Of a stretch of 64,000 nt of DNA, positions 12,201 to 40,038 are shown in pieces. Origin of the DNA: Phyllobacterium sp. OV277 (GTDB taxonomy: Bacteria > Pseudomonadota > Alphaproteobacteria > Rhizobiales > Rhizobiaceae); the NCBI RefSeq assembly GCF_900104355.1, contig NZ_FNIY01000002.1:806001-870000 (forward strand), in the 5' to 3' direction. The notes under the pieces are model-generated. The model was not told where the DNA came from. It searched no databases and worked only from the letters and a program-made list of their open reading frames with translations. Each line of letters begins with the position of its first letter. The first letter of the stretch is position 1. The position numbers and the translations under genes were made by a program.

Positions 12201-12365
12201 CTAGGCTTTGCGAAGGAGCCCCGCAATCAGCGAAATCACCAGAAGCGCCAAGAATACAAAGAAGATAATCTTTGCAATACCGACAGAAGCGCCAGCAATT
12301 CCGCCAAAGCCCAATACACCTGCCACAAGGGCAATAATCAGAAAAACCACTGCATAATAAAGCAT
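12201..12365 (-). CDS. DUF1328 small membrane protein
   Basis: 54 residues, beginning [16 protein letters not shown] and continuing [16 protein letters not shown], then a second hydrophobic helix and RKA at the end. This two-helix pattern with a central Gly/Ala loop is typical of DUF1328 (YtjA-like) proteins, which are frequent in stress regulons; the molecular role is not known. An exact GGAAC-N16-CGTT promoter lies 29-53 bases upstream, and a strong terminator follows, so it is a single-gene transcript under the general stress sigma factor. Confidence 0.85.
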
Positions 12366-12393
12366 TCTTATCTCCCTATCTTGTTGCTTTCAG

Positions 12394-12418
12394 AACGCTT
12401 CCAAAGAGACTTTGTTCC
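12394..12418 (-). promoter_or_regulatory. EcfG-type promoter for the DUF1328 gene
   Basis: On the minus strand GGAAC (12418-12414), 16 bases, CGTT (12397-12394): an exact match to the alphaproteobacterial general-stress sigma factor consensus, 29 bases from the start codon. Confidence 0.85.
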
Positions 12419-12453
12419 GATGCGGATAGTTTGATGGAATGCTTTGAGCAGTT

Positions 12454-13248
12454 TTATGCCTTTGCCTTGCTGCTTTCCTTGAAGAACAATGCCTGTGTAA
12501 TCAGTGCCTTGACCATGTCAGGATTAAAAGGCTTGGTGACAAGGAAGGTTGGCTCCGGCCGTTCGCCAGTCAGCAGGCGTTCCGGAAACGCGGTGATGAA
12601 GATGACAGGAACAGCATCCTGGCTAAGGATATTGTTCACTGCATCAATACCCGAACTACCATCGGCCAACTGGATGTCTGCAAGGATCATGCTGGGGTGG
12701 GTCTGGGCATATAGCTTGATCGCCTCATCCCGGGTGCGGGCAATCCCGACGACCCTGTGGCCCAGGCTTTCAACCATGTGTTCGATATCCATGGCGATTA
12801 ACGGCTCATCCTCAATAATCATGATATCGGTGGCAATCTGCTTGGAGATGCCGACGGAGGCTTCATCGAGCAGGCCATAGAGTTCCCGCTCATCAATATC
12901 GAGGATATCCAGTGTTTCGGCCTGACTGAATCCTTCAAGGCTGATGAGAAGGAAAGCCTGTCGCGCCCGTGGTGCAATGGCCGTCAGATTCGCTGCGGCA
13001 TGCTTTTCCCAGCCGAATTCCGATTGCAGTTCGAGAGGCCGCACATTGACGGAGTTGAAATGCTTGATCAGCAGCTTGTAGAGACTGACGCGATCAGATG
13101 ACGTTTCAGGGAAAAGGGAGACATCGCTGATGAGAATTTCAAGTGTGGCCGCCACATAGGCATCACCGGAGGACTGCGAGCCTGTAATGGCACGAGCGAA
13201 ACGACGAAGGTAGGGCAGATGAGGAGCGATCCGAGTGGACAATGACAT
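12454..13248 (-). CDS. phyR: PhyR, general stress response regulator (sigma-like domain plus receiver)
   Basis: 264 residues from ATG 13248 (SLSTRIAPHLPYLRRFARA); an upstream in-frame Met at 13305 is not homologous. Residues 1-130 are the ECF sigma-like domain that mimics EcfG. Residues 141-260 are a receiver with IIEDEPLIAMD, phospho-acceptor Asp about 191 in MILADIQLADG, IFITAFPE and the TKPF lysine. When phosphorylated, PhyR binds NepR and frees the sigma factor. It is divergent from nepR-ecfG, the classical arrangement in rhizobia and Brucella. The intergenic region has back-to-back GGAAC elements, pointing to autoregulation. Confidence 0.96.
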   Translation of the reverse strand: MSLSTRIAPHLPYLRRFARAITGSQSSGDAYVAATLEILISDVSLFPETSSDRVSLYKLLIKHFNSVNVRPLELQSEFGWEKHAAANLTAIAPRARQAFLLISLEGFSQAETLDILDIDERELYGLLDEASVGISKQIATDIMIIEDEPLIAMDIEHMVESLGHRVVGIARTRDEAIKLYAQTHPSMILADIQLADGSSGIDAVNNILSQDAVPVIFITAFPERLLTGERPEPTFLVTKPFNPDMVKALITQALFFKESSKAKA

Positions 13249-13300
13249 TATGATGATTTCCCTGTTCCCCTTGGGGATATTGAAGAAGAATACGAACCAA

Positions 13301-13358
13301 AACACATTCGCGAAAAAAAAGTTCCCCGGTGACGGAACTTTTCCTCATCTAAGGTATT
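13301..13358. promoter_or_regulatory. Divergent EcfG-like promoter pair between phyR and nepR
   Basis: Two -35 type GGAAC elements face outward, 8 bases apart: minus strand at 13325-13321 and plus strand at 13334-13338. Toward phyR the -10 at 16 bases is TGTT (one mismatch to CGTT). Toward nepR it is TATT (two mismatches), so that side is weaker. Confidence 0.55.
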
Positions 13359-13417
13359 ATCGACATTAATGTGCCTGCCAAAAGCTTTTGCGACGAACGA
13401 CCAGCAAAGATAGTAGA

Positions 13418-13621
13418 ATGAACGCAAACAAAAGTCTCTCCGACGTCCCTGACAAGGGACGCGTCCGCCGCCGCGACGTCAGAAACGCGGAATCAGAAAT
13501 CGGTTTAAAGCTTCGTGCACTTTATGCCTCTGTTCAGGAGGAGGAAATCCCTGTGCGATTTCTGGACCTTTTGGAAAAGCTCGACGAAGCTGAACGCAAC
13601 CATGCTCAGTCGTCAAAATAG
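13418..13621 (+). CDS. nepR: NepR, anti-sigma factor of the general stress response
   Basis: 67 residues from ATG 13418. The NepR core is clear: IGLKLRALYASVQEEEIPVR (first helix and linker), then FLDLLEKLDEAE (second helix). NepR sequesters EcfG and is itself trapped by phosphorylated PhyR. The basic N-terminus (GRVRRRDVR) is disordered-like as usual. It sits 11 bases upstream of ecfG, in one transcript. An in-frame ATG at 13388 would add ten residues lacking similarity. Confidence 0.92.
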   Translation: MNANKSLSDVPDKGRVRRRDVRNAESEIGLKLRALYASVQEEEIPVRFLDLLEKLDEAERNHAQSSK

Positions 13622-13632
13622 TAGGCGGTCGA

Positions 13633-14184
13633 ATGGTACATGAGTCTCCTGATTTCAAGAGAAATCTGATTGCGTCGCTGCCAAAGCTGCGTGCTTTCGC
13701 CGTATCGCTGATCGGCAACCCCGATCGCGCCGATGATCTTGTCCAGGACACGATCATGAAGGCGTGGGCCAAACAGGATTCTTTCGAGGCTGGCACGAAC
13801 ATCAAGGCTTGGCTGTTCACAATTCTGCGCAATGAATTTTATAGCCAGATGCGCAAACGCGGGCGTGAAGTGCAGGATTCCGACGGTATTTTTACAGAGC
13901 AGCTTTCAGTGCATCCGGCGCAATATGGATCACTCGATTTGCAGGATTTTCGCAAGGCTTTGGAAAAACTACCCGATGATCAGCGTGAGGCAATTATCCT
14001 TGTCGGTGCATCAGGTTTTTCCTACGAGGAAGCGGCCGATATTTGCGAATGCGCTGTCGGAACAATCAAGAGCCGGGTGAGCCGTGCGAGAACGCGATTG
14101 CAAGAGCTTCTTGATGTGCAGGGCGAGGTGGATTACGGGCCCGATTCTATCTCTACCCAGGTTACCTCAAACAAATTTGCCTGA
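13633..14184 (+). CDS. ecfG: EcfG, general stress response sigma factor
   Basis: 183 residues with region 2 (LRAFAVSLIGNPDRADDLVQ, then DTIMKAWAKQDSFEAGTNIK and WLFTILRNEFYS) and region 4 (LPDDQREAIILVGASGFSYE, then EAADICECAVGTIKSRVSRA). There is no extra C-terminal domain, as expected for ECF group 15. It directs RNA polymerase to GGAAC-N16/17-CGTT promoters, several of which lie within this window. It follows nepR directly and overlaps the convergent receiver gene by 18 bases at the 3' end. Confidence 0.95.
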   Translation: MVHESPDFKRNLIASLPKLRAFAVSLIGNPDRADDLVQDTIMKAWAKQDSFEAGTNIKAWLFTILRNEFYSQMRKRGREVQDSDGIFTEQLSVHPAQYGSLDLQDFRKALEKLPDDQREAIILVGASGFSYEEAADICECAVGTIKSRVSRARTRLQELLDVQGEVDYGPDSISTQVTSNKFA

Positions 14185-14586
14185 AATATCATCCTCATTT
14201 GTCCCTTGAGGCATTGGCGATGGCTTGGAAAATGCGGCTGCTACTGCCTGCAGGATCTGGGTCTTGCCATAGGGTTTCAGGACGACAGGCACATTGGCAA
14301 AGCCTGTGATGCCACTCCTTTGCTGGTCATAGGCGGTGACGAAGACAATAGGGGTACCCTGTCGTTGCAAAAGCATTGCTGCTTCGAACGATGAAGCGCC
14401 TCGAGCCTGAACTTCAAGAATGGCGATGTCGCATGGCTGCCCGCTCTGGACCCAGAAAAGCAGTTCTGCAACGGTTGAAACCACTTGAACAGATTTGGCA
14501 CCGCACTCTTCGGCGATGCGTTCCAGCTCCAGTCCTATCAGAAATTCATCGTCCAGAACGAGAAGTCGCTTGCCGGTTAGTTCCAT
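14167..14586 (-). CDS. Single-domain receiver with Glu at the phospho-acceptor position
   Basis: 139 residues from ATG 14586, with AGGAG eight bases upstream (a GTG two codons earlier is too close to that site). It is a lone receiver: acidic pair VLDDEFLIG (Asp 12-13), Thr in IVFVTAYDQ at about 84, and Lys in VVLKPYG at about 104. The phospho-acceptor strand reads CDIAILEVQARG, so the usual Asp is Glu 58. Related single-domain receivers regulate the PhyR pathway as phosphate sinks or intermediates; with Glu, this one is probably not phosphorylated in the standard way and may mimic the active state. It overlaps the 3' end of ecfG by 18 bases. Confidence 0.85.
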   Translation of the reverse strand: MELTGKRLLVLDDEFLIGLELERIAEECGAKSVQVVSTVAELLFWVQSGQPCDIAILEVQARGASSFEAAMLLQRQGTPIVFVTAYDQQRSGITGFANVPVVLKPYGKTQILQAVAAAFSKPSPMPQGTNEDDISGKFV

Positions 14587-14727
14587 ATTCACTGCTCCTA
14601 AAAACAGTGCCTATGCGCCCAATCGCTGATGTCTGTCATTTAACTATGACATGTCAAATGCGAAGAATTATCGGGCATTTGAGCGCCATCGTGCTAGCGT
14701 GCCGGACAACTCTCAATTGAGAAAAAC

Positions 14728-15483
14728 ATGAAAACAAGCTCAGCTTCAACGGTGCGGCAATTCCCTTGCGAAAAGTGTCCCTTACAGGATTTTCCGCATT
14801 TTCAGCCGCATGACAAGGAAGAGGTAACGTTTCTATCTGGCTTCAAGTCAGGTGAACTTGTTGCTGACACCGGTACAACGTTTCTGGTTGAGGGCGCCAA
14901 CAGTGCGCATCTGTTCACGGTTCTGTCGGGGTGGGCGTTTCGCTATAAAACCCTTGAAGATGGCCGCAGGCAGATACTCAACTATGTGCTCCCCGGTGAC
15001 CTTATCGGATTGCAAGGGTCCCTGATGAAAGAGATGCAGCACTCTATCGAGGCGATGTCGCCAGTCATTCTGTGCATGTTCCAACGCGATAAGTTACCTA
15101 ATCTTTTTCGCAATTTCCCCAGTCTTGCCTATGACATTACATGGCTGGCATCACGCGAAGAGCAGATGCTGGATGAAATTCTGCTGAGTGTCGGCAGGCG
15201 CTCTGCGTTAGAGCGTGCGGCATATCTGTTTGCGTTTATTTTCCAGCGTGCCAAATCAGTGGGCATGGTGAAGGACAACAAACTTTTCGCTCCGCTCAGG
15301 CAACAGCATGTCGCAGACACGCTTGGCCTGTCTATTGTGCATACCAATAAGACACTCAAGAAACTCGCCGCTCGCGGTGCATTACGCTGGGTTGATCGCG
15401 GGTGTGAAGTTCTTGATGAAGCAATGCTTCTGGATATATCGGGGTGGCAGGGTTTGCCGAAGGTGCAGAGACCCTTTATCTAA
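14728..15483 (+). CDS. Crp/Fnr family transcriptional regulator
   Basis: 251 residues. A cyclic-nucleotide-binding-type beta barrel occupies about residues 35-150 (VEGANSAHLFTVLSGWAFRY, ILNYVLPGDLIGLQG). A winged helix-turn-helix follows at about 195-235 (LFAPLRQQHVADTLGLSIVH and TNKTLKKLAARGALRW). The N-terminal FPCEKCPLQ has two Cys, but the full four-Cys iron-sulfur pattern of Fnr is not evident. Such proteins are common beside stress genes in rhizobia. A sensor kinase follows 58 bases later. The effector is unknown. Confidence 0.85.
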   Translation: MKTSSASTVRQFPCEKCPLQDFPHFQPHDKEEVTFLSGFKSGELVADTGTTFLVEGANSAHLFTVLSGWAFRYKTLEDGRRQILNYVLPGDLIGLQGSLMKEMQHSIEAMSPVILCMFQRDKLPNLFRNFPSLAYDITWLASREEQMLDEILLSVGRRSALERAAYLFAFIFQRAKSVGMVKDNKLFAPLRQQHVADTLGLSIVHTNKTLKKLAARGALRWVDRGCEVLDEAMLLDISGWQGLPKVQRPFI

Positions 15484-15541
15484 GTCATTCATGGAACGCA
15501 GGCCGATCCGAACGCCTCGGTTGTCAGGAGCAATGCATGTG

Positions 15542-16954
15542 ATGCAATGGCGTAGAATATTGACGGGTTTTTCCGAGAGACCGGGGCGCGGGCTGGCAAT
15601 TTTGATCTCGCTTGTCCTAATTGTCACGGCGGCTGCATCAACCGTTATTCTGACCCGCGGTTTCAATAACCAGATGGATGACGTCATCGCCACGTACCGG
15701 GTGCGCGAGCAGGCAGACCGTACGCTGGCACTTCTGAATGCGGCTCATAGCAACCAGCGTGGTTTTCTTCTGACCCAGAACCCGGCCTTTCTCGATTTAT
15801 ATCGCACTTCATCATCGCATCTGGATGAATCGCTCAACACGTTAAACGAGATGACAAGGGGCAATTCGCGCCAGCAGGTCATCGTTAGCCAAATTCAGGG
15901 GCTGGCGAAACAGAAACAGCAAAAAGTTGATTCAGCTATTGCGCTGTCGCTTGCCGGAAACAACAGCGATGCCCTTGCTTCGCTTGGACCGGATTTCGGT
16001 ATCGGGCAAATGGATGAAATCAAGAAAACCATCGACGGTTTTCTGGCTGAAGAGGACCGGCGGCTCATAGCACGCAATATTGCCATGGATGACCTGCGAT
16101 TCTGGCTTACGATCGCGTCAATTGCGTCTCTCGGAGGTGCGCTTATTCTGGCCTATATCCTCGCCAGCCGTACCAAGCGCTATGTCCGCAAGCTTACCGA
16201 GGGCCAATCAACGCTCCTTTCTGAAAAATCACAGCTGGAAGAAATGGTGCAACTGCGTACCGCCGAGCTGGAAAAAGCCATGCTGGTGGCCACGCGCGAG
16301 AGGGCGCGTGTCGAAACGCTTCTTCAGGATTCCGATCATCGCATCGGTAATTCATTGGCAACAGTTTCATCGCTTCTCGGTATCCAGATGCGTGATGTGT
16401 CGTCGGAGGAAATCCGAGCAGCTCTTGGTGCTGCGCGTGATCGTATCCAGACGATTTCTTCGGCGCATCGTCGCCTCCGGCTGGGCAAAGATCACGAAAC
16501 TGTTCGAGCCGATGAGTATCTGCCGGAGATCATTGCTGATCTGAAAGAATCCCATATTCATGACCGGGATATCCGGATCAGCTCCCATATTGAACCCATT
16601 GACCTGAGTTCGCGCGACGCCACAACACTGGGTATCATCATTGGCGAGTTGACCATGAACGCAATCAAGCACGCCTTCCCGCATAACCGCGCCGGGTCGA
16701 TTGCAATCAGTCTGGCGCATGATGTGAACGGTGTTGTTGCGCTTGATATTGCAGATAACGGCGTTGGTATCCAGAAGAAGCTCCAAAAACGTGCATCCGG
16801 TATTGGATCGGTGATTGTTGCGCAGCTGTGTCAACAGTTTGGAGGTGAGGTGAACTACGCTGCAAACCCAAGCGGCGGCACATTGGTGACGGTTACATTT
16901 CCTTCGCTCCAGAGCGGCGGGACTCCAGAAAAAAAGAAGGCAGAAAACGAATGA
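15542..16954 (+). CDS. Membrane sensor histidine kinase: CHASE3 plus HisKA_2-type kinase
   Basis: About 470 residues. A first membrane helix (LAILISLVLIVTAAASTVIL) is followed by a CHASE3-like periplasmic domain to about residue 175 (typical NQRGFLLTQNPAFLDLYR), a second helix (FWLTIASIASLGGALILAYI) and a coiled linker. The kinase has its His at about 266 in DSDHRIGNSLATVSSLLG and an ATPase with GELTMNAIKHAFPH and DNGVGI. HisKA_2/HWE kinases commonly feed PhyR. Start is uncertain: AGGAG at 15526-15530 supports GTG 15539 or ATG 15542 by spacing; ATG 15533 and 15491 are also in frame. The stimulus is not known. Confidence 0.85.
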   Translation: MQWRRILTGFSERPGRGLAILISLVLIVTAAASTVILTRGFNNQMDDVIATYRVREQADRTLALLNAAHSNQRGFLLTQNPAFLDLYRTSSSHLDESLNTLNEMTRGNSRQQVIVSQIQGLAKQKQQKVDSAIALSLAGNNSDALASLGPDFGIGQMDEIKKTIDGFLAEEDRRLIARNIAMDDLRFWLTIASIASLGGALILAYILASRTKRYVRKLTEGQSTLLSEKSQLEEMVQLRTAELEKAMLVATRERARVETLLQDSDHRIGNSLATVSSLLGIQMRDVSSEEIRAALGAARDRIQTISSAHRRLRLGKDHETVRADEYLPEIIADLKESHIHDRDIRISSHIEPIDLSSRDATTLGIIIGELTMNAIKHAFPHNRAGSIAISLAHDVNGVVALDIADNGVGIQKKLQKRASGIGSVIVAQLCQQFGGEVNYAANPSGGTLVTVTFPSLQSGGTPEKKKAENE

Positions 16955-16961
16955 AGGCGCG

Positions 16962-17183
16962 TCAGAGCGTTGCCGCGCCGGTCTCCGGCAAGTCTGCTTT
17001 TAGCTTTTCAAGAGCAAGCTCGATATCGCGCAGGTTGCGGGTGGAACCATCGTCAGTGTCCATTCCGCCTTCGGTTGCCGCGCGCTGCAATCCTCTTGCT
17101 TCACTTAAAAGTTCCTGCAGTTTTTCAATTTTTGCGGGTCTGGTCAGACTATTGTCGGATAGAATGTCTTTGACTTCGAGCAT
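16962..17183 (-). CDS. Small hypothetical helical protein, EcfG-controlled
   Basis: 73 residues from ATG 17183, which has AAGGGAG six bases upstream. The sequence is charged and predicted helical (MLEVKDILSDNSLTRPAKIE, then KLQELLSEARGLQRAATEGG), with no membrane segment. I do not recognise the family. It has an exact GGAAC-N16-CGTT promoter 33-57 bases upstream, divergent from a second exact promoter for the next kinase gene, so it belongs to the stress regulon. The 3' end is 7 bases from the convergent CHASE3 kinase gene. Confidence 0.7.
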   Translation of the reverse strand: MLEVKDILSDNSLTRPAKIEKLQELLSEARGLQRAATEGGMDTDDGSTRNLRDIELALEKLKADLPETGAATL

Positions 17184-17215
17184 AAATTTCTCCCTTGCAG
17201 TGTTGATCAGAAAGA

Positions 17216-17240
17216 AACGGCGCTGGCGAATAAATGTTCC
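17216..17240 (-). promoter_or_regulatory. EcfG-type promoter for the 73-aa protein
   Basis: Minus strand GGAAC (17240-17236), 16 bases, CGTT (17219-17216). Exact consensus. Confidence 0.85.
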
Positions 17241-17246
17241 GATTGG

Positions 17247-17271
17247 GGAACAAAGGGTAATTCGTCGCGTT
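17247..17271 (+). promoter_or_regulatory. EcfG-type promoter for the HWE kinase gene
   Basis: Plus strand GGAAC (17247-17251), 16 bases, CGTT (17268-17271). Exact consensus, 57 bases before the GTG start and only six bases from the divergent GGAAC element. Confidence 0.85.
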
Positions 17272-17327
17272 GATATCCGAAGCTGTTTTAATGTTGAAAG
17301 TAAGGGCGGCTCGACAAGGGGCGTCAT

Positions 17328-18857
17328 GTGAATATGAAGTCAGGCCATATTTCCGAAAACATGTCAGAATCTCTGTCAGCCCCAGCTCGGTTGGATGTGC
17401 TTTCGGCTGTAAGTCAGTTGGAATTTCAGTCGGATGAACTTTACGATCTTGTGTCTCTGGCGTTGTCATTGTCGGGCAGTGACGTGGCTCAAATTGTGCT
17501 GGTTGGAGAGAACCAAAACCAGATACTGACGCAAGCAGGAACAATTTCCAACCGATCGCCTGACCTGTGGGTTTTCGGTGCTGGCGCGCTGGCTTTCTCC
17601 GGGGATGATTGTCTGGTCATTCCCGATGCGCGCGCAGACAAACGCTTTTCCGATAACCACGCCGTGTCCGCGGCCCAGGGAGTGCGGTTTGTCGCAGCTG
17701 TTCCTGTGCGCGTTGAAGAAGAGCCTGTTGGCGCATTGATTATCGCATCCGTCGAACCCGTTCATGCCATCGCGCCGCAGCTTCAATCCCAGCTCAACCG
17801 GGTGGCTCGGCTTGCAGGCTCGTTTCTTGGCCTGAAGCGTGATGCGCAAAGCCGCACCAATTCCATTGCAACATTGCACAGAGACGAGTTGCGCAATGAT
17901 ATGGCGCTGGAGGTCGGCAATGTTGGCAGTTGGGTGTGGGACCTGAAAACAGGGAAATTTACAGGCAATAAGATGGCCTATTCCATGCTTGGACTCAAGG
18001 ATGACAAGCCGATCAATGGGGAGGATGTGTTTCGTGCGATGCATCCGGATGATTTTCCGCTGATGAAATCCGCATTCACACGGGCGCTCGCCCATAATCA
18101 GGATTACGTCGGTGAGTTTCGCGCCGCATCGTCAGGTCAATGGCTATTGGGTCGAGGTCGTATTTTCGAGCGTGATGCGGCGGGCAAGCCGCTGGTTGCT
18201 GTTGGTGTGAATATCGATATCACCAGCACCCGCAATGCTGCGGAGAAAACGCGGCTGTTGCTGCGCGAATTGAATCACCGGGTCAAAAACACGCTGGCTA
18301 TGCTGCAGTCTCTGGCACGGCAGACGCTCAACCGGACCTCCGATCCGGCAGAATTCATGGAAGCATTTTCTGGCCGCCTGAGAGCGATTTCCGAGGCGCA
18401 TACGCTTTTGTCGGATCGGGAATGGAGCGGCATCAGTCTCATTGATCTCATTACAAAACAGGTCGAGCCCTATGCGATCTATGACCCCTCACAGGTCATT
18501 CTTGAGGGCGAGGATATGGTTCTGCCGCCGGATCATGCGCTGGGTCTTGGCATTGCGTTGCATGAACTGGCTACCAATGCAGCCAAACATGGTGCGCTGT
18601 CGTCAGCACATGGCCGGGTGCGTGTTTCGTGGCAGACGGAACCCGGTCTCGATGAATCGCGTGTCGTTATCCATTGGGTGGAAACAGACGGTCCGCGCGT
18701 CACGCCTCCGGCAGCCCGCGGTCTGGGCGAGCGATTGATTGAGCGCAGTCTGGATAAGGTTTTGTCGAGCAGTGTCCGGTTGAGTTATCCCGAAACCGGC
18801 ATGGAAGTTCTGATTTCCATGCCGATAAAGGAAAGCTCAAACATCGTCGTTGGTTGA
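17328..18857 (+). CDS. HWE-family sensor histidine kinase with GAF and PAS domains
   Basis: 509 residues from GTG 17328, which has AAGGGG six bases upstream; ATG 17334 is also possible. No membrane helix is seen, so it is probably soluble. Residues 20-170 form a GAF-like domain (PDARADKRFSDNH, VRFVAAVPVRVEEEPVGALI). Residues 190-305 form a PAS domain (VGSWVWDLKTGKF, MHPDDFPLMKSAF). The HWE kinase has His about 317 in LRELNHRVKNTLAMLQSLAR and LHELATNAAKHGAL. Its own exact EcfG promoter suggests positive feedback into the PhyR pathway. The last 21 bases overlap the convergent next gene. Confidence 0.9.
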   Translation: MNMKSGHISENMSESLSAPARLDVLSAVSQLEFQSDELYDLVSLALSLSGSDVAQIVLVGENQNQILTQAGTISNRSPDLWVFGAGALAFSGDDCLVIPDARADKRFSDNHAVSAAQGVRFVAAVPVRVEEEPVGALIIASVEPVHAIAPQLQSQLNRVARLAGSFLGLKRDAQSRTNSIATLHRDELRNDMALEVGNVGSWVWDLKTGKFTGNKMAYSMLGLKDDKPINGEDVFRAMHPDDFPLMKSAFTRALAHNQDYVGEFRAASSGQWLLGRGRIFERDAAGKPLVAVGVNIDITSTRNAAEKTRLLLRELNHRVKNTLAMLQSLARQTLNRTSDPAEFMEAFSGRLRAISEAHTLLSDREWSGISLIDLITKQVEPYAIYDPSQVILEGEDMVLPPDHALGLGIALHELATNAAKHGALSSAHGRVRVSWQTEPGLDESRVVIHWVETDGPRVTPPAARGLGERLIERSLDKVLSSSVRLSYPETGMEVLISMPIKESSNIVVG

Positions 18858-19283
18858 GGGCTTTTTCTTCGTAAGAAGAGAGAGGCCGGCAAAAGCAATG
18901 ACGGGAACAGCGAGCATCAGCAGTCCGCGCGATTTCAATACGGTAGGCGCGGTTGCCAGTGCAGCGATAGTCAGAAGGGTTGATTTATCAACCTTTGACC
19001 GCTCGCGTTGGCGCTTGCGGGCAATTATTTCGGAAATTTTCATGACGATATAGGCCAGTAGCGCAAGAACGAACGCGCCTCCGGCCAGAATCAGGGCTGC
19101 ATGCAGTTCGCCGAAACGTTCTGCGAGCGCGATGTAGCCTGCCACCAGCAGGAAGATCGCGCCAACTACCGATAGAATGCCAATCAGCGCCAGGAAAATA
19201 GCACGCCGTTTCGCCCTGTTCACCGCAGAACCGAGCTCTCCAGAAACAGCACTGGACAGAAGTGGGGCCAGCAATTTCAGCAT
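18837..19283 (-). CDS. Phage-holin-superfamily-like membrane protein (stress operon)
   Basis: 148 residues with two strong helices at about 29-50 (IFLALIGILSVVGAIFLLVA) and 60-80 (HAALILAGGAFVLALLAYIV), a basic stretch (IIARKRQRERSK), and a third hydrophobic region near the C-terminus (LLMLAVPVIAFAGLSLL). This resembles putative Actinobacteriophage-holin/DUF1469-type proteins that often pair with DUF883 proteins in stress operons; it is not evidence for a prophage. It begins one base after the DUF883 stop and shares its EcfG promoter. Confidence 0.7.
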   Translation of the reverse strand: MLKLLAPLLSSAVSGELGSAVNRAKRRAIFLALIGILSVVGAIFLLVAGYIALAERFGELHAALILAGGAFVLALLAYIVMKISEIIARKRQRERSKVDKSTLLTIAALATAPTVLKSRGLLMLAVPVIAFAGLSLLTKKKPSTNDDV

Positions 19284-19284
19284 G

Positions 19285-19623
19285 TCAGCGACGGGCTATC
19301 AGAGCCACAAGAAATCCGACACCCGCGGCGACAGCAACCGTCGTCAAGGGATTTTCCCGCACAGTCTCAGTCAACTGATCTTCAAGTGCCTTTGCCTGCG
19401 AGCGAATTTCGTCCAAAGCGTCTTCACCGCGTGCACGGGCGTTTTCAAAGCTTGAGGAGGCATTGCTTGTCGCCTCTCTCGCTGAATTCTTGCCGATTTT
19501 GGCGAGTGTCGCAGCAATGCTCGCAATATCCTCTTTCAATGCGGCCACCTGTGCCTGAAGATCAGGATTGGTTTCGGTTGCATCATCCACGGCTTTGCGA
19601 ACTTTTGAAGATACTGACGCCAT
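19285..19623 (-). CDS. DUF883 (YqjD/ElaB-like) membrane-anchored protein
   Basis: 112 residues from ATG 19623, preceded by AAGGAG. A long amphipathic helical region is followed by the family tail ETVRENPLTTVAVAAGVGFL, then VALIARR, a single C-terminal membrane helix with a glycine-rich motif. YqjD-type proteins bind ribosomes at the membrane in stationary phase in E. coli; whether this one does so is not known. An exact EcfG promoter lies 40-64 bases upstream, and the holin-like gene follows in the same operon. Confidence 0.85.
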   Translation of the reverse strand: MASVSSKVRKAVDDATETNPDLQAQVAALKEDIASIAATLAKIGKNSAREATSNASSSFENARARGEDALDEIRSQAKALEDQLTETVRENPLTTVAVAAGVGFLVALIARR

Positions 19624-19662
19624 TAAAGGAACTCCTTGAGAAATATAGGTTTCATGGGTGGA

Positions 19663-19687
19663 AACGCCCCGCACAGATATTGGTTCC
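19663..19687 (-). promoter_or_regulatory. EcfG-type promoter for the DUF883/holin-like operon
   Basis: Minus strand GGAAC (19687-19683), 16 bases, CGTT (19666-19663). Exact consensus. Confidence 0.85.
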
Positions 19688-19746
19688 AAAGCGGAGCAAA
19701 GACCATCGCCGGCGCAACTGCCCACTTTTGTTATGGTATACAGGTG

Positions 19747-20619
19747 CTATTCGGCGCTGCCGCGCAGCAGAATTTTCTCGCTATCCGCTTTGTAAGCCTC
19801 CTCGGTATAGGCTGGATGCGCTTCAAGCTGCTGCTTGGTGAACGGCGTATAGACAGCGATCTTGCCGTCCTTGCCAGCGAGCAGGTCAAGATTCTCAATT
19901 GAAATAGCGATTGGTTTCTTTCCCAAACCGAGAAAGCCACCGACATCCACGACAAATGCTTCCACCTGACCATCAGGCGTCATCAGGGCATCTCCCACTG
20001 TGCCCAATGTCTCTTCGTCAGAACCGTAGACCGTTGTGCCAATCAACTTTTCGGCGCTGACAGCAGTTGCCGGTACCGCTTTCAAACCATCGCGCACGCT
20101 TGTTGTTGCTTCCGGCACAGGCTTTGCGGGCTGAAGTGCGGGTTTTGCAAATTCTGCAGAAACGCCTTCGCCAGCCAATGCAGCCTTGTCAAAGGCGGGT
20201 GCTTTTTCGAGCTCCTCCTTGCTGGTGGTGATAACGAGCCAACGGCTACCATCCGCGCGGTCTGCCCAGTTCAGGTCATTCAATACAACAGCCACATCTT
20301 TCTCGCCGATACCGAGGAAACCACCCACACCGACGATTGCAGCCTGCGCCATACCATTGGCATCGAGCACCACATCTTTTACTCCGCCGATGGAGACAGC
20401 ATCATCCTGAGGGCCGGTATAGACTTTCTGCCCGATTAATCCTGATGTCAGAATTTGTCCTCGCTCGGCTTTCAGATAGCGTCCGGCGCTTGGCACCGGC
20501 TTGGCCGCTTCGTTAAAAATTCCGCGCATTTCAGTCGGGTTGGAACCCTGGCTCTGAGCGAAGCCGGAGGTGGTAAGAACTGTCATCAAAGCGGTGGTGA
20601 TCAAGAGGCGTTTCATCAT
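19747..20619 (-). CDS. Exported protein with two PRC-barrel domains
   Basis: 290 residues (or 289 from the next ATG). A signal peptide (KRLLITTALMTVLTTSGFAQ) precedes two PRC-barrel-like repeats, at about residues 58-140 (LIGQKVYTGPQDDAVSIGGV; VGVGGFLGIGEKDVAV) and 192-270 (LIGTTVYGSDEETLG; VDVGGFLGLGKKPIAI). The duplicated GGFLGxGxK signature shows internal duplication. PRC barrels bind small ligands, RNA or partner proteins; here the location is periplasmic. Such genes are common in the rhizobial stress regulon. I saw no exact EcfG promoter directly upstream. Confidence 0.85.
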   Translation of the reverse strand: MMKRLLITTALMTVLTTSGFAQSQGSNPTEMRGIFNEAAKPVPSAGRYLKAERGQILTSGLIGQKVYTGPQDDAVSIGGVKDVVLDANGMAQAAIVGVGGFLGIGEKDVAVVLNDLNWADRADGSRWLVITTSKEELEKAPAFDKAALAGEGVSAEFAKPALQPAKPVPEATTSVRDGLKAVPATAVSAEKLIGTTVYGSDEETLGTVGDALMTPDGQVEAFVVDVGGFLGLGKKPIAISIENLDLLAGKDGKIAVYTPFTKQQLEAHPAYTEEAYKADSEKILLRGSAE

Positions 20620-20650
20620 GGGAATATGGTTCCTGTGTAATGTAATGATG

Positions 20651-20679
20651 AGAAAGAAACGCCGGCCCAGTGGCCGGCG
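20651..20679 (-). terminator. Terminator after the small membrane protein pair
   Basis: CGCCGGCC (20660-20667) pairs with GGCCGGCG (20672-20679). On the minus strand it is followed by TTTCTTTCTC. It separates the 27-aa gene from the PRC-barrel gene. Confidence 0.75.
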
Positions 20680-20703
20680 CAAAGGACATGGGTTGAAGTG
20701 CTC

Positions 20704-20787
20704 CTATGAAAGGTAGCCAAGGAACCAGAGAATGAGAATGATCGGTAATGGCAAGCCGATGAGCCAAAGCAAAACTCCACGCAGCAT
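20704..20787 (-). CDS. 27-residue membrane microprotein
   Basis: Translates as MLRGVLLWLIGLPLPIILIL, then WFLGYLS: one hydrophobic helix with a Gly/Pro kink. AGGAGTT lies seven bases upstream of the ATG, a very good ribosome site. Very small proteins of this pattern recur in proteobacterial genomes. It follows the DUF3309 gene by 62 bases and precedes a terminator, so the two likely form a stress-inducible pair. Function unknown. Confidence 0.6.
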   Translation of the reverse strand: MLRGVLLWLIGLPLPIILILWFLGYLS

Positions 20788-20849
20788 ATTCAGTAACTCC
20801 TGATTGTGATGTCTGATCTGTGGGTCAGGTCAGAATTCAAGCATTTCAA

Positions 20850-21008
20850 TTAGATGCGGCCCAAAAGAAGCAGGATAAGCAGGATAACCAGCACAATACC
20901 AAACAGGCCGGACGGGCCGTAACCCCATGCCCGCGAGTAGGGCCAGCTGGGAAATACGCCGATGAGGACCAGTATCAGAATGATAATCAGAATGGTGGTC
21001 ACTGGCAT
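20850..21008 (-). CDS. DUF3309 small membrane protein
   Basis: 52 residues: an N-terminal helix (MPVTTILIIILILVLIGVFP), the conserved middle SWPYSRAWGYGPSG and a second helix (LFGIVLVILLILLLLGRI). This is the DUF3309 pattern of short two-helix proteins with a Trp/Tyr-rich loop. The role is unknown. Upstream is an EcfG-like promoter with a one-base deviation in the -10. Confidence 0.8.
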   Translation of the reverse strand: MPVTTILIIILILVLIGVFPSWPYSRAWGYGPSGLFGIVLVILLILLLLGRI

Positions 21009-21046
21009 GTCTGCCTCTCTCCTTTTGAGCGGTCCGTTATTCTGAA

Positions 21047-21071
21047 AACTTCCGATATCGGTTTTTGTTCC
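21047..21071 (-). promoter_or_regulatory. EcfG-like promoter (variant -10) for the DUF3309 gene
   Basis: Minus strand GGAAC (21071-21067), 16 bases, AGTT (21050-21047) against consensus CGTT. The spacer contains the palindrome CCGATATCGG. Confidence 0.5.
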
Positions 21072-21236
21072 GGGGCATTGCAGCCTCTATTTCGGACCGT
21101 CTGATCGCAAGACGATGATTTTGTCCGCTTTGCAGCGATGTCAGCATGGCTGATGCAACCAAATTCAGCCGGCTTCGTTTCAGTGGCGTGTTTCAAATGG
21201 AGAGGGATTGTATGATTTCGGGGGAGTGGGGCGATT

Positions 21237-23186
21237 ATGCCGTCTGAAACTACGCGGAAGACTTCACCTCGCGCGGTAGAGCGCGTCACGCAAAAATCAG
21301 TTTATGCGCCCACTCAGGCTGAGATTGACGGGCGAATGCAATTTCCGCCCGTTATTGTTGCCATTGCCGTGATTGGTGCGCTCTATTTTGCCCGGGATAT
21401 TTTGGTTCCGCTTGCGTTGGCGCTGCTTTTAACCTTCGCCCTGTCGCCTTTGGTCACTTATCTCCATCGCTTCGGAATTCCAAAAGTTCTGTCGGTTATC
21501 AGCGTTGTGCTGACCGCCTTTATCGCAATATTCCTGTTTGCCACAATTGTGGTTGGTCAGTTGACAGTGCTGGCGCAGAATTTGCCAAGTTATCAGTATA
21601 ATATCGAGGCGAAGATCCGGACCATCAAAGATGCTCAGTCGGGCAACGGTGTTTTTGATCGCGGCGTGCGTATGTTCAAACGCCTTGGCGAGGAAATTGG
21701 CCGGTCCGATGAAGTGGAGCGGTTTGCTGCCAATAATAACGATCAAAAGGCCCAGCCGCCGCAAAATGTAGCACCGGCGGACCAGCAAAACCGGCCGCCT
21801 CTGCGCAAGGACGATCCCGACAAGCCCGTTCCGGTGGAAATTCGCTATCCTGCGCCTGATCCCCTGCAATTGCTGCAAACCGTTGCCGGACCCTTGATCC
21901 AGCCATTGGCGACGGTTGGCATTGTCATTGTGTTTGTCATCTTCATGTTGCTGCGACGCGAGGATTTGCGTGATCGCTTTATAAAACTCGTGGGGGCCAG
22001 CGATATTCATCGCACGACGACAGCCTTGCATGATGCGGGCAAGCGTGTCGGCCAATATCTCCTGATGCAGTTGGTCATCAATATCTGCTTTGGTGTTCCG
22101 ATCGGGATTGGTCTTTGGCTTATCGGTATTCCCAATCCCATGCTTTGGGGTCTTCTGGCAATTGCGCTGCGCTTTGTGCCCTATATCGGCCCATTCATCG
22201 CCGCGTCTTTCCCGCTTATTCTTGCACTGGCGGTCGACCCCGGCTGGATGCTTTTATTGTGGACCGCTGCCCTGTTCATCGTTCTGGAACTCATCAGCAA
22301 CAACATTATGGAGCCTGTGCTTTACGGTTCAAGGACCGGGCTCTCGCCGGTTGCCATTCTGCTCGCGGCCATTGTCTGGACCTGGATATGGGGTCCTATC
22401 GGGCTTCTTCTTTCCACCCCACTGACGGTCTGCCTCGTCGTGCTTGGTCGCCATGTGCCGCGCTTCGAGTTTCTCGATGTGCTGCTCGGCAACGAGCCTG
22501 TGCTGCTGCCGCCACAACAGCTTTATCAGCGGTTGTTGTCAGGCGATCCTGATGAAGCCACGGAGAAGGCAGAGGATTATCTCCAGTCGTCACCAATCAG
22601 CGATTATTATGTATCGGTTGCTGTGCCCGCACTGTTTCTCGCCGAACACGACCGGGGGCGGGGTGTGCTGGATGCGTCCCGTCGCGGCAGGGTTGTACAG
22701 AGCATGATACGCCTCGTTGAAAACCTGTCCGATCATGAGGATATGGAAGAGGAAGCAGAGGAGGGTGCTACAAGTGCCGAACCTGCAAAAGCAAAGAACG
22801 ATACAACCAAAAAACCGAAGACGATCATCTCGGCGGGCGGGCGTGGCAATCTTGACGATGCAGCGGCAGTCATTGTCGGCGACATTCTGGAGCGGCAAGA
22901 TTTCGATGTTCGTGATATTACCCATGATGAACTTGAGACCGTCAATATCGATAAACTTGATCTGACGGATGCGAGCGCTGTTTATGTCAGCTATCTCAAC
23001 ACGTCTTCCATAGCGCATGCCCGCTATCTCGTTCGCCGTATCCGGCGGCGCAACGCGCGCATTAAAATCATCATTGGTTTCTGGGCGGAAGATTCTGGGA
23101 ATGTCGAGGGTGAAAAGATCGTTGGGTCGACCAAAAATTGCTATTTTTCCTCGTCCATCAAAGAAGCTGTGGCTTTGATCGCCTGA
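21237..23186 (+). CDS. AI-2E family transporter with long C-terminal extension
   Basis: 649 residues, well above the usual 350-400. Residues 40-400 carry the AI-2E/PerM pattern with paired N-terminal helices (FPPVIVAIAVIGALYFARDI), a soluble insert rich in Asp, Lys and Pro at about 160-200, and the conserved LIGIPNPMLWGLLAIALRFVP and TPLTVCLVVLGRHVP. After an acidic linker (EDMEEEAEEGATSAEP) comes a domain at about 540-645 that reads like a Rossmann or B12-binding-like fold (AAVIVGDILERQDFDVRDIT; YVSYLNTSSIAHARYLVRRI; IIIGFWAED). The substrate is unknown; E. coli TqsA exports autoinducer-2, but many relatives do not. It sits within the stress island. Confidence 0.85.
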   Translation: MPSETTRKTSPRAVERVTQKSVYAPTQAEIDGRMQFPPVIVAIAVIGALYFARDILVPLALALLLTFALSPLVTYLHRFGIPKVLSVISVVLTAFIAIFLFATIVVGQLTVLAQNLPSYQYNIEAKIRTIKDAQSGNGVFDRGVRMFKRLGEEIGRSDEVERFAANNNDQKAQPPQNVAPADQQNRPPLRKDDPDKPVPVEIRYPAPDPLQLLQTVAGPLIQPLATVGIVIVFVIFMLLRREDLRDRFIKLVGASDIHRTTTALHDAGKRVGQYLLMQLVINICFGVPIGIGLWLIGIPNPMLWGLLAIALRFVPYIGPFIAASFPLILALAVDPGWMLLLWTAALFIVLELISNNIMEPVLYGSRTGLSPVAILLAAIVWTWIWGPIGLLLSTPLTVCLVVLGRHVPRFEFLDVLLGNEPVLLPPQQLYQRLLSGDPDEATEKAEDYLQSSPISDYYVSVAVPALFLAEHDRGRGVLDASRRGRVVQSMIRLVENLSDHEDMEEEAEEGATSAEPAKAKNDTTKKPKTIISAGGRGNLDDAAAVIVGDILERQDFDVRDITHDELETVNIDKLDLTDASAVYVSYLNTSSIAHARYLVRRIRRRNARIKIIIGFWAEDSGNVEGEKIVGSTKNCYFSSSIKEAVALIA

Positions 23187-23283
23187 TGATCCGGGCATTT
23201 GCAGAAAGCAATGACTTGATGGGAACCAAGACAATTCTGTGACGTTTCAAATTAGCTGATCACATGGTGGTCGGTACGTTCAG

Positions 23284-23320
23284 AACCCGGTGCCTGTTCC
23301 CCCGTGGGCGCCGGGTTTTC
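23284..23320 (+). terminator. Terminator-like hairpin after the AI-2E gene
   Basis: AACCCGGTGCC (23284-23294) pairs with GGCGCCGGGTT (23307-23317) with one G-T pair and a 12-base loop, followed by TTC. Confidence 0.6.
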
Positions 23321-23380
23321 TCGCATAAAAAATTCATATTTCACTTTGTTTTCAATATCTTGAATATTTCTTTGGTCGTT

Positions 23381-23405
23381 GGAACCTGATGCCAATTGGG
23401 CCGTT
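23381..23405 (+). promoter_or_regulatory. EcfG-type promoter for the CsbD-like gene
   Basis: GGAAC (23381-23385), 16 bases, CGTT (23402-23405). Exact consensus, 36 bases before the start codon. Confidence 0.87.
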
Positions 23406-23440
23406 TAGAGTGCGTGAACAAACACGCAAGGAGTTCCCCG

Positions 23441-23632
23441 ATGGGTAGCACAAGTGACAAGATTTCCGGACTTGCAAACAAGGCAGCCGGTAACATCAAA
23501 CAGGCAGCCGGCAAGGCGACAGGTTCCACGAAGCTGCAAGCCGAAGGCAAGGCTCAGGAGCTGAAGGGCGATGCCCAGCAGGTGAAGGGCAAGGCCAAGG
23601 ATGCCGTCAAGAAGGTCGTTGACCGGGCGTGA
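23441..23632 (+). CDS. CsbD family stress protein
   Basis: 63 residues from ATG 23441 with AAGGAG seven bases upstream. The sequence is low in complexity and rich in Lys, Ala, Gly and Gln, with repeats such as [16 protein letters not shown] and [20 protein letters not shown], as in CsbD/YjbJ proteins. These are abundant, highly hydrophilic stress proteins of uncertain mechanism. Exact EcfG promoter upstream and strong terminator downstream, so a monocistronic stress gene. Confidence 0.9.
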
Positions 23633-23655
23633 TCGCCGATATGATTTAACGTTCT

Positions 23656-23686
23656 AACCGGCTCGTCATCGAGCCGGTTGCTTTTT
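23656..23686 (+). terminator. Terminator of the CsbD-like gene
   Basis: AACCGGCTCG (23656-23665) and CGAGCCGGTT (23670-23679), a 10-bp perfect stem with a TCAT loop, then GCTTTTT. Confidence 0.88.
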
Positions 23687-23753
23687 GTCTGATAGTCTGT
23701 CGTCTTGAACATCATTCCAAAAATAATAATCCAATATCTTGAGGGGCCTGCTG

Positions 23754-24560
23754 ATGAGACTGAGTGTCGGGTGTGAGTTGAGTTTCGATTTCGCGCAGGA
23801 AACGCCCCTGATTGCCATTTTGAATGTGCATCATTCGCGGGTGGATGACATTGAAGGCATTGAGACATTTGAGGCGACACTGGGCTCCAGCGTTGATGGT
23901 TATCACGACCAGTTCGGCAATTGGTGCAATCGTATCCTTGCCGCGCCGGGTCCATTCACCTGCTCGACCAATGCGGTGGTTCATGACAGCGGCATGCCTG
24001 ATCCGGTTGTTCTAGATGCCGTTCAGCACCGGGTACAGGACTTGCCCGCTGAAACTTTGGTCTATCTTCTGGGCAGCCGCTATTGTGAGACGGATGTATT
24101 GAGTGAGGACGCATGGCGGCTTTTCGGCTACACGCAGGAAGGCTGGCCGCGGGTTCAGGCGGTTTGTGATTATGTCCATAATCACATTACATTCGGCTAC
24201 GAGTTTTCCAATCCGACACGCACCGCTGCATCGGGCTATTGGGAAGGCCGTGGCGTTTGCCGGGATTTTACCCATTTGGCGGTGGCATTTTGCCGGTGCC
24301 TCAATATTCCGACCCGCTATTGCACTGGCTACATCACCGATATTGGCGTCCCTCTGCCGCACTCCACTATGGATTTCTGTGCCTGGATGGAAGTTTATCT
24401 GGGCGGACAGTGGCATGCATTTGATCCGCGCAACAACAAGCCGCGCATAGGGCGCGTGAAAGTAGCACATGGACGGGATGCAGCGGATGTTCCGCTGACC
24501 AATGTTTTTGGTCCAAATGTGCTGACCAAGTTTACGGTTTGGGCAAAAGAAGCAGTGTGA
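23754..24560 (+). CDS. Transglutaminase-like cysteine protease family protein
   Basis: 268 residues from ATG 23754, with GAGGGG upstream. An N-terminal beta domain (RLSVGCELSFDFAQETPLIA) is followed by the transglutaminase core with the nucleophile in RGVCRDFTHLAVAFCRCLNI, the His in GGQWHAFDPRNN and the following Asp. This is the bacterial transglutaminase-like superfamily, probably a peptidase or amidase. There is no signal peptide. It is 121 bases after the CsbD-like gene with a terminator between, so it is transcribed separately. Confidence 0.88.
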   Translation: MRLSVGCELSFDFAQETPLIAILNVHHSRVDDIEGIETFEATLGSSVDGYHDQFGNWCNRILAAPGPFTCSTNAVVHDSGMPDPVVLDAVQHRVQDLPAETLVYLLGSRYCETDVLSEDAWRLFGYTQEGWPRVQAVCDYVHNHITFGYEFSNPTRTAASGYWEGRGVCRDFTHLAVAFCRCLNIPTRYCTGYITDIGVPLPHSTMDFCAWMEVYLGGQWHAFDPRNNKPRIGRVKVAHGRDAADVPLTNVFGPNVLTKFTVWAKEAV

Positions 24561-24627
24561 TATTCTGCTTTTTTCGCAACCTTCTCCGCCGCCGACAGTT
24601 TTGACTGGAGGTATATAGGAGGACAGC

Positions 24628-24870
24628 ATGAGCCAACGTGCGATTGATTTCGTCAATAATTGGATTGAAGCCAATGTCCACGCCACACGACCGGCGGATA
24701 TGGCGCATCATGATCCAAGGCCAAAACAGCTTGTAGCCAAATGCACCGCCGATGCGGAGGCAGCCGGTATTTCGAGTGAAGAAATACTTGATGGTATTGG
24801 TGATCTGGAGATTTGCATGATCACCGCCATTGATCGGACCGCCTTGGTCAAAGGCCGTAAACAGGCCTAA
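24628..24870 (+). CDS. DUF768-like small protein
   Basis: 80 residues, soluble and acidic. MSQRAIDFVNNWIEANVHAT and AEAAGISSEEILDGIGDLEI resemble the rhizobial DUF768 family, whose function is unknown. A GGAGG lies 7-11 bases upstream of the ATG. It ends in a 4-base tail-to-tail overlap with dnaE2. Confidence 0.75.
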   Translation: MSQRAIDFVNNWIEANVHATRPADMAHHDPRPKQLVAKCTADAEAAGISSEEILDGIGDLEICMITAIDRTALVKGRKQA

Positions 24871-39052: not shown

Positions 39053-39357
39053 GAAATTCCTACCTTTGACTATGACTGACCGTCTGTGCCGGTGAGATTT
39101 TCAGCACGACGTTTATCGGGTTTGGAACGGGGACTCCCTGATTTCAAGTCTTAAGGTAGCAACAGGCAGAATTCAAACGCTTATCCGACCCAATGGATTC
39201 GAAGCGACGCAACTGCACCAAAGCGTGATAGGAAGGAGCAGAAAATTGCCACGATCCGGGAACTCCTTCTGAATTGTACCGTTCTTCCAGATCGAGAAAG
39301 GCACGGTCCAAGACAAGTTTCGCTCATCTTGCCCTTAACAATCATCAGGAGAAGAAG
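39053..39357. other. Divergent intergenic region between symporter and SOD genes
   Basis: 305 bases with no gene seen. It contains an exact EcfG promoter (39259-39283) toward the SOD gene and the leader of the symporter gene. Confidence 0.6.
39259..39283 (+). promoter_or_regulatory. EcfG-type promoter for the SOD gene
   Basis: GGAAC (39259-39263), 16 bases, CGTT (39280-39283). Exact consensus, 75 bases upstream of the start codon. Confidence 0.85.
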
Positions 39358-40038
39358 ATGGATCTCAACAGACGCGATATGCTGGTGCTCTCGGGCGCGG
39401 CGGCGGCAACAACGCTCTTTGCTCCAACCATTCAGGCGCATGCGGCGGTTCCTTTCAAACAACCGGAATTGCCCTATGCGGAAGATGGTCTGGCGCCTGT
39501 GATATCCGCGCGCACTGTCGGCCTGCATTACGGCAAGCACCATGCGGGCTATTTCAAGAAGCTCAACACGCTGGTGGAAAAGACGCCCTATGCCGATCTT
39601 TCATTGGAAGAGGTGGTCATACGGGCGAAGAAGGAAGGCAATGCGCCTATTTTCAACAATGCGGCCCAAGCCTGGAACCACAATCTCTACTGGCAACAGT
39701 TCAAGGGCGGACCTACCGCTGCGAAAGGCGCTTTTGCTACGGCGGCGGAAAGCAGCTTTGGCGGAATTGATGGTTTGAAGAAGAAGATTGTTGCCGAGTC
39801 GGACAATGTATTTGGAACTGGCTGGGTCTGGCTGGTCAAAGACGGTGACAAGCTTGCTGTGGTGGGCATGAAGGATGCTGGTGATCCTCTTGCAGAAGGC
39901 AAGAAAGCTGTGCTTGGCATCGATGTCTGGGAACACGCTTATTATCTTGATTATGAAAACCGCCGCGCCGACCATGTTGCAGCGGTTCTCGATAAGCTTG
40001 TTAACTGGCAGTTCGTTTCCGAACAGTTTGACGCCTGA
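39358..40038 (+). CDS. Superoxide dismutase, Fe-type, with Tat signal
   Basis: 226 residues from ATG 39358, with AGGAGAAGAAG just upstream. The N-terminus MDLNRRDMLVLSGAAAATTL has the twin-arginine pattern, with cleavage likely near QAHAA, so the enzyme is exported folded with its metal. The SOD core has the ligands His in LHYGKHHAGYFKKLN, His in AQAWNHNLYWQQF, and Asp and His in GIDVWEHAYYLDYENRRAD. The Gln in NNAAQAWNH points to iron. It is distinct from the usual cytoplasmic SOD of these bacteria. The exact EcfG promoter upstream makes it a stress-induced periplasmic defence enzyme. It ends four bases before the convergent SDR stop. Confidence 0.93.
   Translation: MDLNRRDMLVLSGAAAATTLFAPTIQAHAAVPFKQPELPYAEDGLAPVISARTVGLHYGKHHAGYFKKLNTLVEKTPYADLSLEEVVIRAKKEGNAPIFNNAAQAWNHNLYWQQFKGGPTAAKGAFATAAESSFGGIDGLKKKIVAESDNVFGTGWVWLVKDGDKLAVVGMKDAGDPLAEGKKAVLGIDVWEHAYYLDYENRRADHVAAVLDKLVNWQFVSEQFDA

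Follow-up and report, generated by a model that had tools for sequence, protein, structure and literature searches.

What lies behind a conserved stress promoter that has no gene of its own? This question is raised by a 64,000-nt stretch of the Phyllobacterium sp. OV277 genome (contig NZ_FNIY01000002.1, positions 806,001–870,000; hereafter the window), which carries at 12201–24870 a general-stress island around phyR, nepR, and ecfG. A preliminary description of the island had listed six exact copies of the EcfG-type promoter GGAAC-N16-CGTT, ahead of the DUF1328, 73-aa, HWE kinase, DUF883, and CsbD-like genes and, outside the island, of a superoxide dismutase (SOD) gene. All six were exact at the coordinates given for them, but a seventh exact site on the plus strand (23222–23246) and the conserved RNA element behind it had been overlooked. 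No gene of its own follows this site: the preceding AI-2E-type gene ends at 23186, and csbD, with its start at 23441, has a separate promoter at 23381. We conclude that 23253–23320 (plus strand, ends approximate) is probably an EcfG-driven small RNA (sRNA) in a conserved Phyllobacterium general-stress module. This overlooked candidate non-coding gene is the part worth testing, and the earlier interpretation, while right in direction, is too broad.

To assess conservation, we compared 20 Phyllobacterium genomes, that is, the window genome (5.33 Mb) and the corresponding stretch from 19 others. GGAACC and CGTT of the seventh promoter were retained in 20/20 genomes, as was the RNA element with its two hairpins. 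In the window, the element lies directly after the CGTT box and folds into hairpin 1 (23255–23275) and hairpin 2 (23285–23316), the latter exposing the loop UUCCCCCG at 23297–23304; the z-score of the fold was −3.97, and none of 200 shuffles was as stable. When the 254-bp intergenic stretch was used as a blastn query, all 20 genomes of the genus were matched among 99 relatives, while outside the genus there was one weak match of 31 bases (E = 6.5e-4). In 16 of the 20 genomes the match stopped at query positions 129–133, where hairpin 2 ends, and in seven it began with the first base of GGAAC (query 36); in six genomes only the 32 bases of hairpin 2 were aligned. Mean pairwise identity followed the same outline, being 1.00 in both the −35 and the −10 box, 0.59 in the spacer between them, 0.71 in hairpin 1, and 0.94 in hairpin 2, compared to 0.41 in the linker, 0.42 in the tail, and 0.35 in both flanks, with the discriminator within 0.41–0.43. 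The loop itself was identical in 19 of 20 genomes. Since the loop is near-invariant while the rest of the element drifts, it is probably a pairing site.

The structure is also supported by the way in which its bases change. Standard pairs occupied 97.5% of 399 cells, against 23–45% in slid controls, a comparison that favors the real positions over the slid ones in that the hairpins were drawn from the same sequences. Changes on both sides were observed in 6 of the 21 pairs, a number that 2 of 500 shuffles reached, and the covariation score was reached by 0/500; these shuffles leave the relatedness of the genomes in place.

Two further readings of the element were considered and rejected. A repeat element was ruled out by its single copy in the genome, the next match having E = 1.03. 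A coding role was ruled out as well: 6 of the 20 genomes have no open reading frame (ORF) over the loop, and the start and length of the frame vary in the others.

An EcfG-driven sRNA is further supported by seven other promoters conserved in the island. The motif is also locally clustered. GGAAC-N16-CGTT occurs seven times in the window, where dinucleotide shuffles gave a mean of 0.51 and a maximum of 3 (0/100 reaching 7) and where 0.66 would be expected from the 54 sites elsewhere in the genome (Poisson, 6e-6). For the island, six sites were observed when 0.13 would be expected from the rest of the genome (Poisson, 6e-9). With N17 spacing, there were two further matches in the window (41619 and 50897), both outside the island, and 7 of 100 shuffles reached that number. 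The placement of the sites is likewise uneven. Using a crude codon-based ORF caller, we found 34 of the 61 exact sites in the genome outside called ORFs, compared to 545 of the 2040 control positions taken from these loci (p = 1.6e-6); when the seven window sites were excluded, the figure was 27 of 54 (p = 2e-4). An equal frequency of the motif in coding sequence, which the preliminary description had named as a refuting outcome, was thus not observed.

Several observations weigh against an EcfG-driven sRNA. The total of 61 exact sites in 5.33 Mb is not elevated, because the reversed-pattern control gave 86; the signal is the local cluster, the non-coding placement, and the conservation, not the genome-wide total. 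The loop is altered in one of the 20 genomes (L092), 9 of the 12 pairs of hairpin 2 are invariant and hence uninformative on covariation, further pair types were reached by 20 of 500 shuffles, and part of the advantage over slid controls comes from a structure derived from the very sequences that were scored. Duplex energies computed for the loop segment against 18 island-gene leaders revealed no conserved target. Finally, hairpin 2 is followed by a short, variable U-run that was not flagged in the terminator scan, so that the 3′ end of the RNA and its separation from csbD are uncertain.

This last point bears on a different reading, in which the 23222 promoter would be a second, distal promoter of csbD and the hairpins a structured 5′ leader or attenuator of the csbD mRNA instead of a free sRNA. 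The two lie on the same strand, with the csbD start 194 nt downstream, and the U-run after hairpin 2, where no terminator was called, is weak and variable. On the other hand, 18 of the 19 islands with csbD have a promoter of its own ahead of the gene (L085 is without a site, and for L088 no start of the gene could be assigned), and the sequence between hairpin 2 and that promoter has an identity of 0.35, like the other flank. In one genome (L100), moreover, csbD was not found by tblastn, with only an ATG-GCT-TGA remnant left after its promoter, and the RNA element is intact. We therefore consider a csbD leader unlikely. As an observation in its own right, both EcfG promoters remain in L100 although csbD has been reduced to a start and an early stop.

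The upstream gene offers another explanation. Hairpin 2 is very stable and the AI-2E-type gene ends 36 nt before the promoter site, so that the hairpin could be a mere terminator of that gene next to a fortuitous promoter-like sequence. Yet the promoter boxes are invariant in 20/20 genomes, hairpin 1 covaries too, and a plain terminator is not expected to keep its loop letters alongside a poor U-run; we give this explanation very little credence.

We favor the sRNA and envisage its action as follows. Around the phyR-nepR-ecfG switch lie genes that are probably transcribed by EcfG, among them those for small membrane and stress proteins, the HWE kinase, and phyR. Stress would free EcfG from NepR, and EcfG polymerase would then start at 23222–23246, yielding an RNA of ~70 nt, whose 5′ end would form hairpin 1 and whose 3′ part would form hairpin 2 with its exposed C-rich loop. 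The latter probably pairs with G-rich stretches of target mRNAs, as is described for GsrN of Caulobacter.

As to such targets, the loop complement GGGGGAACA occurs at 11 places in the window's own genome and the 10-mer complement GGGGAACAGG at 12, with one place in each case being the element itself. One of the 11 other GGGGAACAGG places is the phyR leader, where 10 consecutive bases are complementary to the RNA (CCUGUUCCCC with GGGGAACAGG) and the phyR ATG follows 12 nt downstream. At five more (L213, L220, L222, L223, and L224) an open frame of at least 50 codons starts within 40 nt, the longest running for 491 codons from a GTG that is a start candidate only. The duplex between the loop and the phyR leader reached −22.9 kcal/mol in the window and in two other genomes (L082 and L084), and none of 1000 mononucleotide-shuffled versions of the window leader paired as strongly; it was −17 to −21 in four more genomes, with a mean of −15.4 over 20 and a weakest value of −10.6. 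However, the leaders of the CHASE3 kinase gene (mean −15.2, 16 genomes) and of the AI-2E-type gene (mean −15.1, 20 genomes; −23.1 in the window) pair equally well, so that phyR is not a demonstrated target, and AACAGG, the core ahead of phyR, may serve only as the ribosome-binding site of that gene. We therefore treat the phyR leader pairing as a lead only. A feedback loop, in which the C-rich hairpin of an EcfG-driven sRNA would pair with G-rich ribosome-binding sites and, at least in the clade to which the window genome belongs, would target the phyR leader, seems to us improbable; if it were true, the stress sigma factor would limit its own activator after transcription.

We turn now to the other members of the island, whose genes were mapped by tblastn in the 20 genomes and whose EcfG-type sites were sought in the 260 nt upstream (GGAAC-N16/17-CGTT, with TGTT or AGTT at −10 scored as variants). 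The gene names of the preliminary description hold, namely DUF1328, PhyR, NepR, the sigma-70 protein beside nepR, the HWE kinase, DUF883, DUF3309, CsbD, and SOD. The core consists of phyR for the anti-anti-sigma response regulator (12454–13263, minus strand; NF006623, 374.9 bits against a cut-off of 240; PhyR_sigma2), nepR for the anti-sigma factor (13418–13621, plus; PF18557, start codon read from the sequence), and the adjoining ecfG for an extracytoplasmic function (ECF) sigma factor (13633–14184, plus; sigma-70 r2/r4), which is 93–100% identical across the 20 genomes. PhyR, with its sigma-like and receiver domains, NepR, and the adjacent ECF sigma factor were all three present in 20/20 islands.

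Around this core, promoters and genes recur together. DUF1328 (12201–12365, minus) is preceded by an exact site (12394–12418, minus) that was kept in 20/20 genomes and ends 28–30 nt before the gene, and the HWE kinase gene (17334–18857, plus) by one (17247–17271, plus) that was equally kept in 20/20 and ends 58–64 nt before the start. The 73-aa gene (16962–17183, minus) had its site (17216–17240, minus) in 18/18 islands with the gene. Upstream of DUF883 (19285–19623, minus), the site at 19663–19687 (minus) reads CGTT in 17 of 20 genomes and AGTT in two and is missing in one. The csbD promoter discussed above occupies 23381–23405 (plus) ahead of the gene at 23441–23632 (plus). Weaker variants before phyR and DUF3309 had also been reported, and both were found: GGAAC-N16-TGTT at 13301–13325 (minus), which ends 37 nt before phyR and recurs in 19 of 20 genomes, and GGAAC-N16-AGTT at 21047–21071 (minus), which ends 38 nt before DUF3309 (20850–21008, minus) and is TGTT or AGTT in 19 of 20. 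The exact site before the Fe/Mn SOD gene (39259–39283, plus; gene 39358–40038, plus), which lies outside the island, was present in 9 of 18 close orthologues, a lower recurrence than that of the island sites.

Conversely, no EcfG-type site was found upstream of nepR, ecfG, dnaE2, or the Crp-like, CHASE3 kinase, 148-aa, PRC-barrel, AI-2E-type, and transglutaminase genes in the genomes with each. The receiver-domain gene had a single GGAAT variant in one genome only, and DUF768 had one exact upstream site, solely in L100, which is the promoter remaining where csbD is missing. Since these genes are interspersed with the others, they serve as internal negative controls. The claim that the regulators are clustered with putative targets is thus borne out, with EcfG-type promoters kept across the 20 genomes and the interspersed genes without them.

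Further features of the island deserve mention. The 73-aa protein, which had no Pfam or NCBIfam match, was present in 18 of 20 islands, each time behind an EcfG promoter. At 17216–17271, its promoter stands back-to-back with that of the HWE kinase, the −35 boxes being 6 bp apart, a spacing shared by 17 of 18 islands (L097 is off by 1 bp), and the two genes are probably fired together. In the divergent phyR/nepR region (13264–13417), opposed GGAAC boxes are kept; on the nepR-ecfG side, GGAACT is found in 20/20 genomes, with an ATT block after it in place of CGTT. A stand-alone receiver-domain protein (14167–14592, minus) overlaps the end of ecfG, is without an EcfG site, and has the same position in 17 of 20 islands, and a possible membrane peptide of 27 residues (20704–20787, minus) is a candidate read by eye. 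The stretch from the RNA element to the csbD promoter contains a palindrome, TTCAA-N4-TTGAA (23351–23364, plus), whose TCAA half is at least 90% conserved over the 20 genomes though its surroundings drift. The window holds a second copy at 41892–41905, and 0 of 100 shuffles reached two; the palindrome is possibly the operator of another regulator.

The preliminary description had regarded the island as a compact readout of the regulon. This is too strong, since 27 of the 34 exact non-coding sites lie elsewhere in the genome, and the island is therefore a conserved core and not the regulon. We picked nine proteins downstream of these 27 sites by eye and analyzed them with Pfam, which returned Ku, GTP cyclohydrolase I, OsmC, a sigma-70-family factor (which we take to be RpoH), transglycosylase-associated, DUF3008, DUF992, and PepSY_2; the ninth had no Pfam match. 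In itself, the promoter cluster is expected biology.

The RNA would add a second tier of regulation to the general stress response (GSR) of a plant-associated genus, and the comparative evidence for it is strong enough to warrant a direct test by a single Northern blot. Conserved EcfG promoters without a gene behind them suggest a route to finding stress sRNAs, and the C-rich loop raises the question of whether such loops in stress sRNAs arose once or repeatedly.

We investigated how far the element extends beyond Phyllobacterium. In 394 genomes of the family, model R1 of the element matched 8 of the 8 sampled members of the genus (E ≤ 3.5e-16) and 10 other genomes (E 2.6e-5 to 9.8e-4), while in 385 genomes of the class it matched its own genome and three others weakly (best E 4.2e-6). 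In the 200 nt upstream of these 13 out-of-genus matches, GGAAC-N16-TGTT was present in one (L111), GGAAC-N16-GGTT in another (L116), and neither in the remaining 11. Outside the genus, 45 family genomes had a composite promoter-plus-loop pattern, at 48 places in all; the reversed control gave ~67, and the 48 places, judged as a set, are taken as chance. When 84,980 species genomes were searched for the loop-plus-stem pattern of hairpin 2, 18 stretches were found, 16 of them in members of the genus; the other two, in Sphingomonas and in a Flavonifractor metagenome-assembled genome, were judged from their sequence to be chance and rejected. There was no match to the element pattern in plasmids and none to the element in Rfam, where the gathering threshold of ar14 (RF02344) was not reached in the window and E ≤ 10 yielded just two models, one of a fungal snoRNA and one, on the other strand, of a Streptococcus sRNA. 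Beyond the weak matches, no relatives outside the genus were found by these searches, which a strongly diverged relative would escape. In the literature searched, subscription journals being outside its scope, there was no description of a Phyllobacterium general-stress sRNA. A separate observation concerns six genomes of genus g111 (G129, G211, G272, G367, G403, and G431; L133–L138), in which an inverted repeat that looks perfect, GGAACCAATGCGAA..TTCGCGTTGGTTCC, recurs and on one strand conforms to the EcfG pattern.

Among known RNA families, ar14 comes into question on account of the weak matches of R1. Like ar14, the Phyllobacterium element has hairpins whose loops are C-rich, and the 3′ stems are similar, but the element has two hairpins only and other loop letters. 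The element might be a shortened and diverged relative, retaining the 3′ hairpin with the C loop and a similar CCCGG stem, and some ar14-like RNAs may be EcfG-driven. Of the 10 weak matches that R1 gave in the family, three reach the gathering score of ar14; L111, a fourth, is ar14-like at 44.2 bits (below the cut-off of 58.8; E 4e-7), with GGAAC-N16-TGTT ending 27 nt before the R1 match. However, none of eight Phyllobacterium elements, that of the window among them, matched ar14 at E ≤ 10 (the rest of the Phyllobacterium genome was not searched for it), the three ar14 matches (L109, L112, and L118) have no EcfG-type site in 200 nt, and chance alone placed a site of the L111 form in 40 of 3340 control stretches from these loci. 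We see a slim chance of such a relationship. The L111 RNA itself (1503–1640, minus), from another genus of the family, has three C-loop hairpins right after GGAAC-N16-TGTT and is possibly an EcfG-driven ar14 relative; since a site of this type also occurs by chance and 13 matches were examined, it is a lead and not a result.

Small RNAs under general-stress sigma factors have precedents in related bacteria. RpoE2 of Sinorhizobium meliloti uses the same promoter type as the EcfG-type sites described here. In that species, RpoE2 promoters have been predicted before 23 sRNAs (PMC3616915). ReC64 of Rhizobium etli is a tested EcfG-dependent sRNA of 88 nt (PMC3892343); like the Phyllobacterium element, it is a short RNA with an EcfG consensus promoter in the phyR-ecfG region. 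The two differ in location, ReC64 being placed downstream of the phyR-tcrY kinase locus and the present element between the AI-2E-type gene and csbD. GsrN of Caulobacter acts on G-rich targets, such as the katG leader, by way of a C-rich loop, and for several Rhizobiaceae GsrN-like RNAs have been predicted in the vicinity of the GSR locus (PMC5869019). GsrN resembles the Phyllobacterium element in its EcfG-type promoter, its linkage to phyR-ecfG, and an exposed C run in the best conserved part (PMC5869019).

Could the element be an ortholog of these EcfG-dependent sRNAs of other Alphaproteobacteria, diverged beyond recognition? The wiring shared with GsrN and ReC64 (PMC5869019, PMC3892343) favors this: the EcfG-type promoter lies upstream and phyR-ecfG is near (both in 20/20 genomes, at 7.2–9.6 kb from ecfG), and the C-rich loop is exposed in 19 of 20, with one variant. 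Against it, the matches of R1 outside the genus are weak, and katG, the proven target of GsrN, was not found, since no PF00141 match was obtained in this draft genome, whereas 5 of 14 control genomes, including Caulobacter, had one. The C-rich loop, furthermore, lies in the 3′ hairpin here and in the 5′ part in the descriptions of those RNAs, and for this reason the element was not filed as a GsrN ortholog, an origin that we hold to be doubtful. Compared by description, it is called here a putative EcfG-driven, GSR-linked sRNA with a C-rich loop, which would work like GsrN and ReC64 without being their ortholog.

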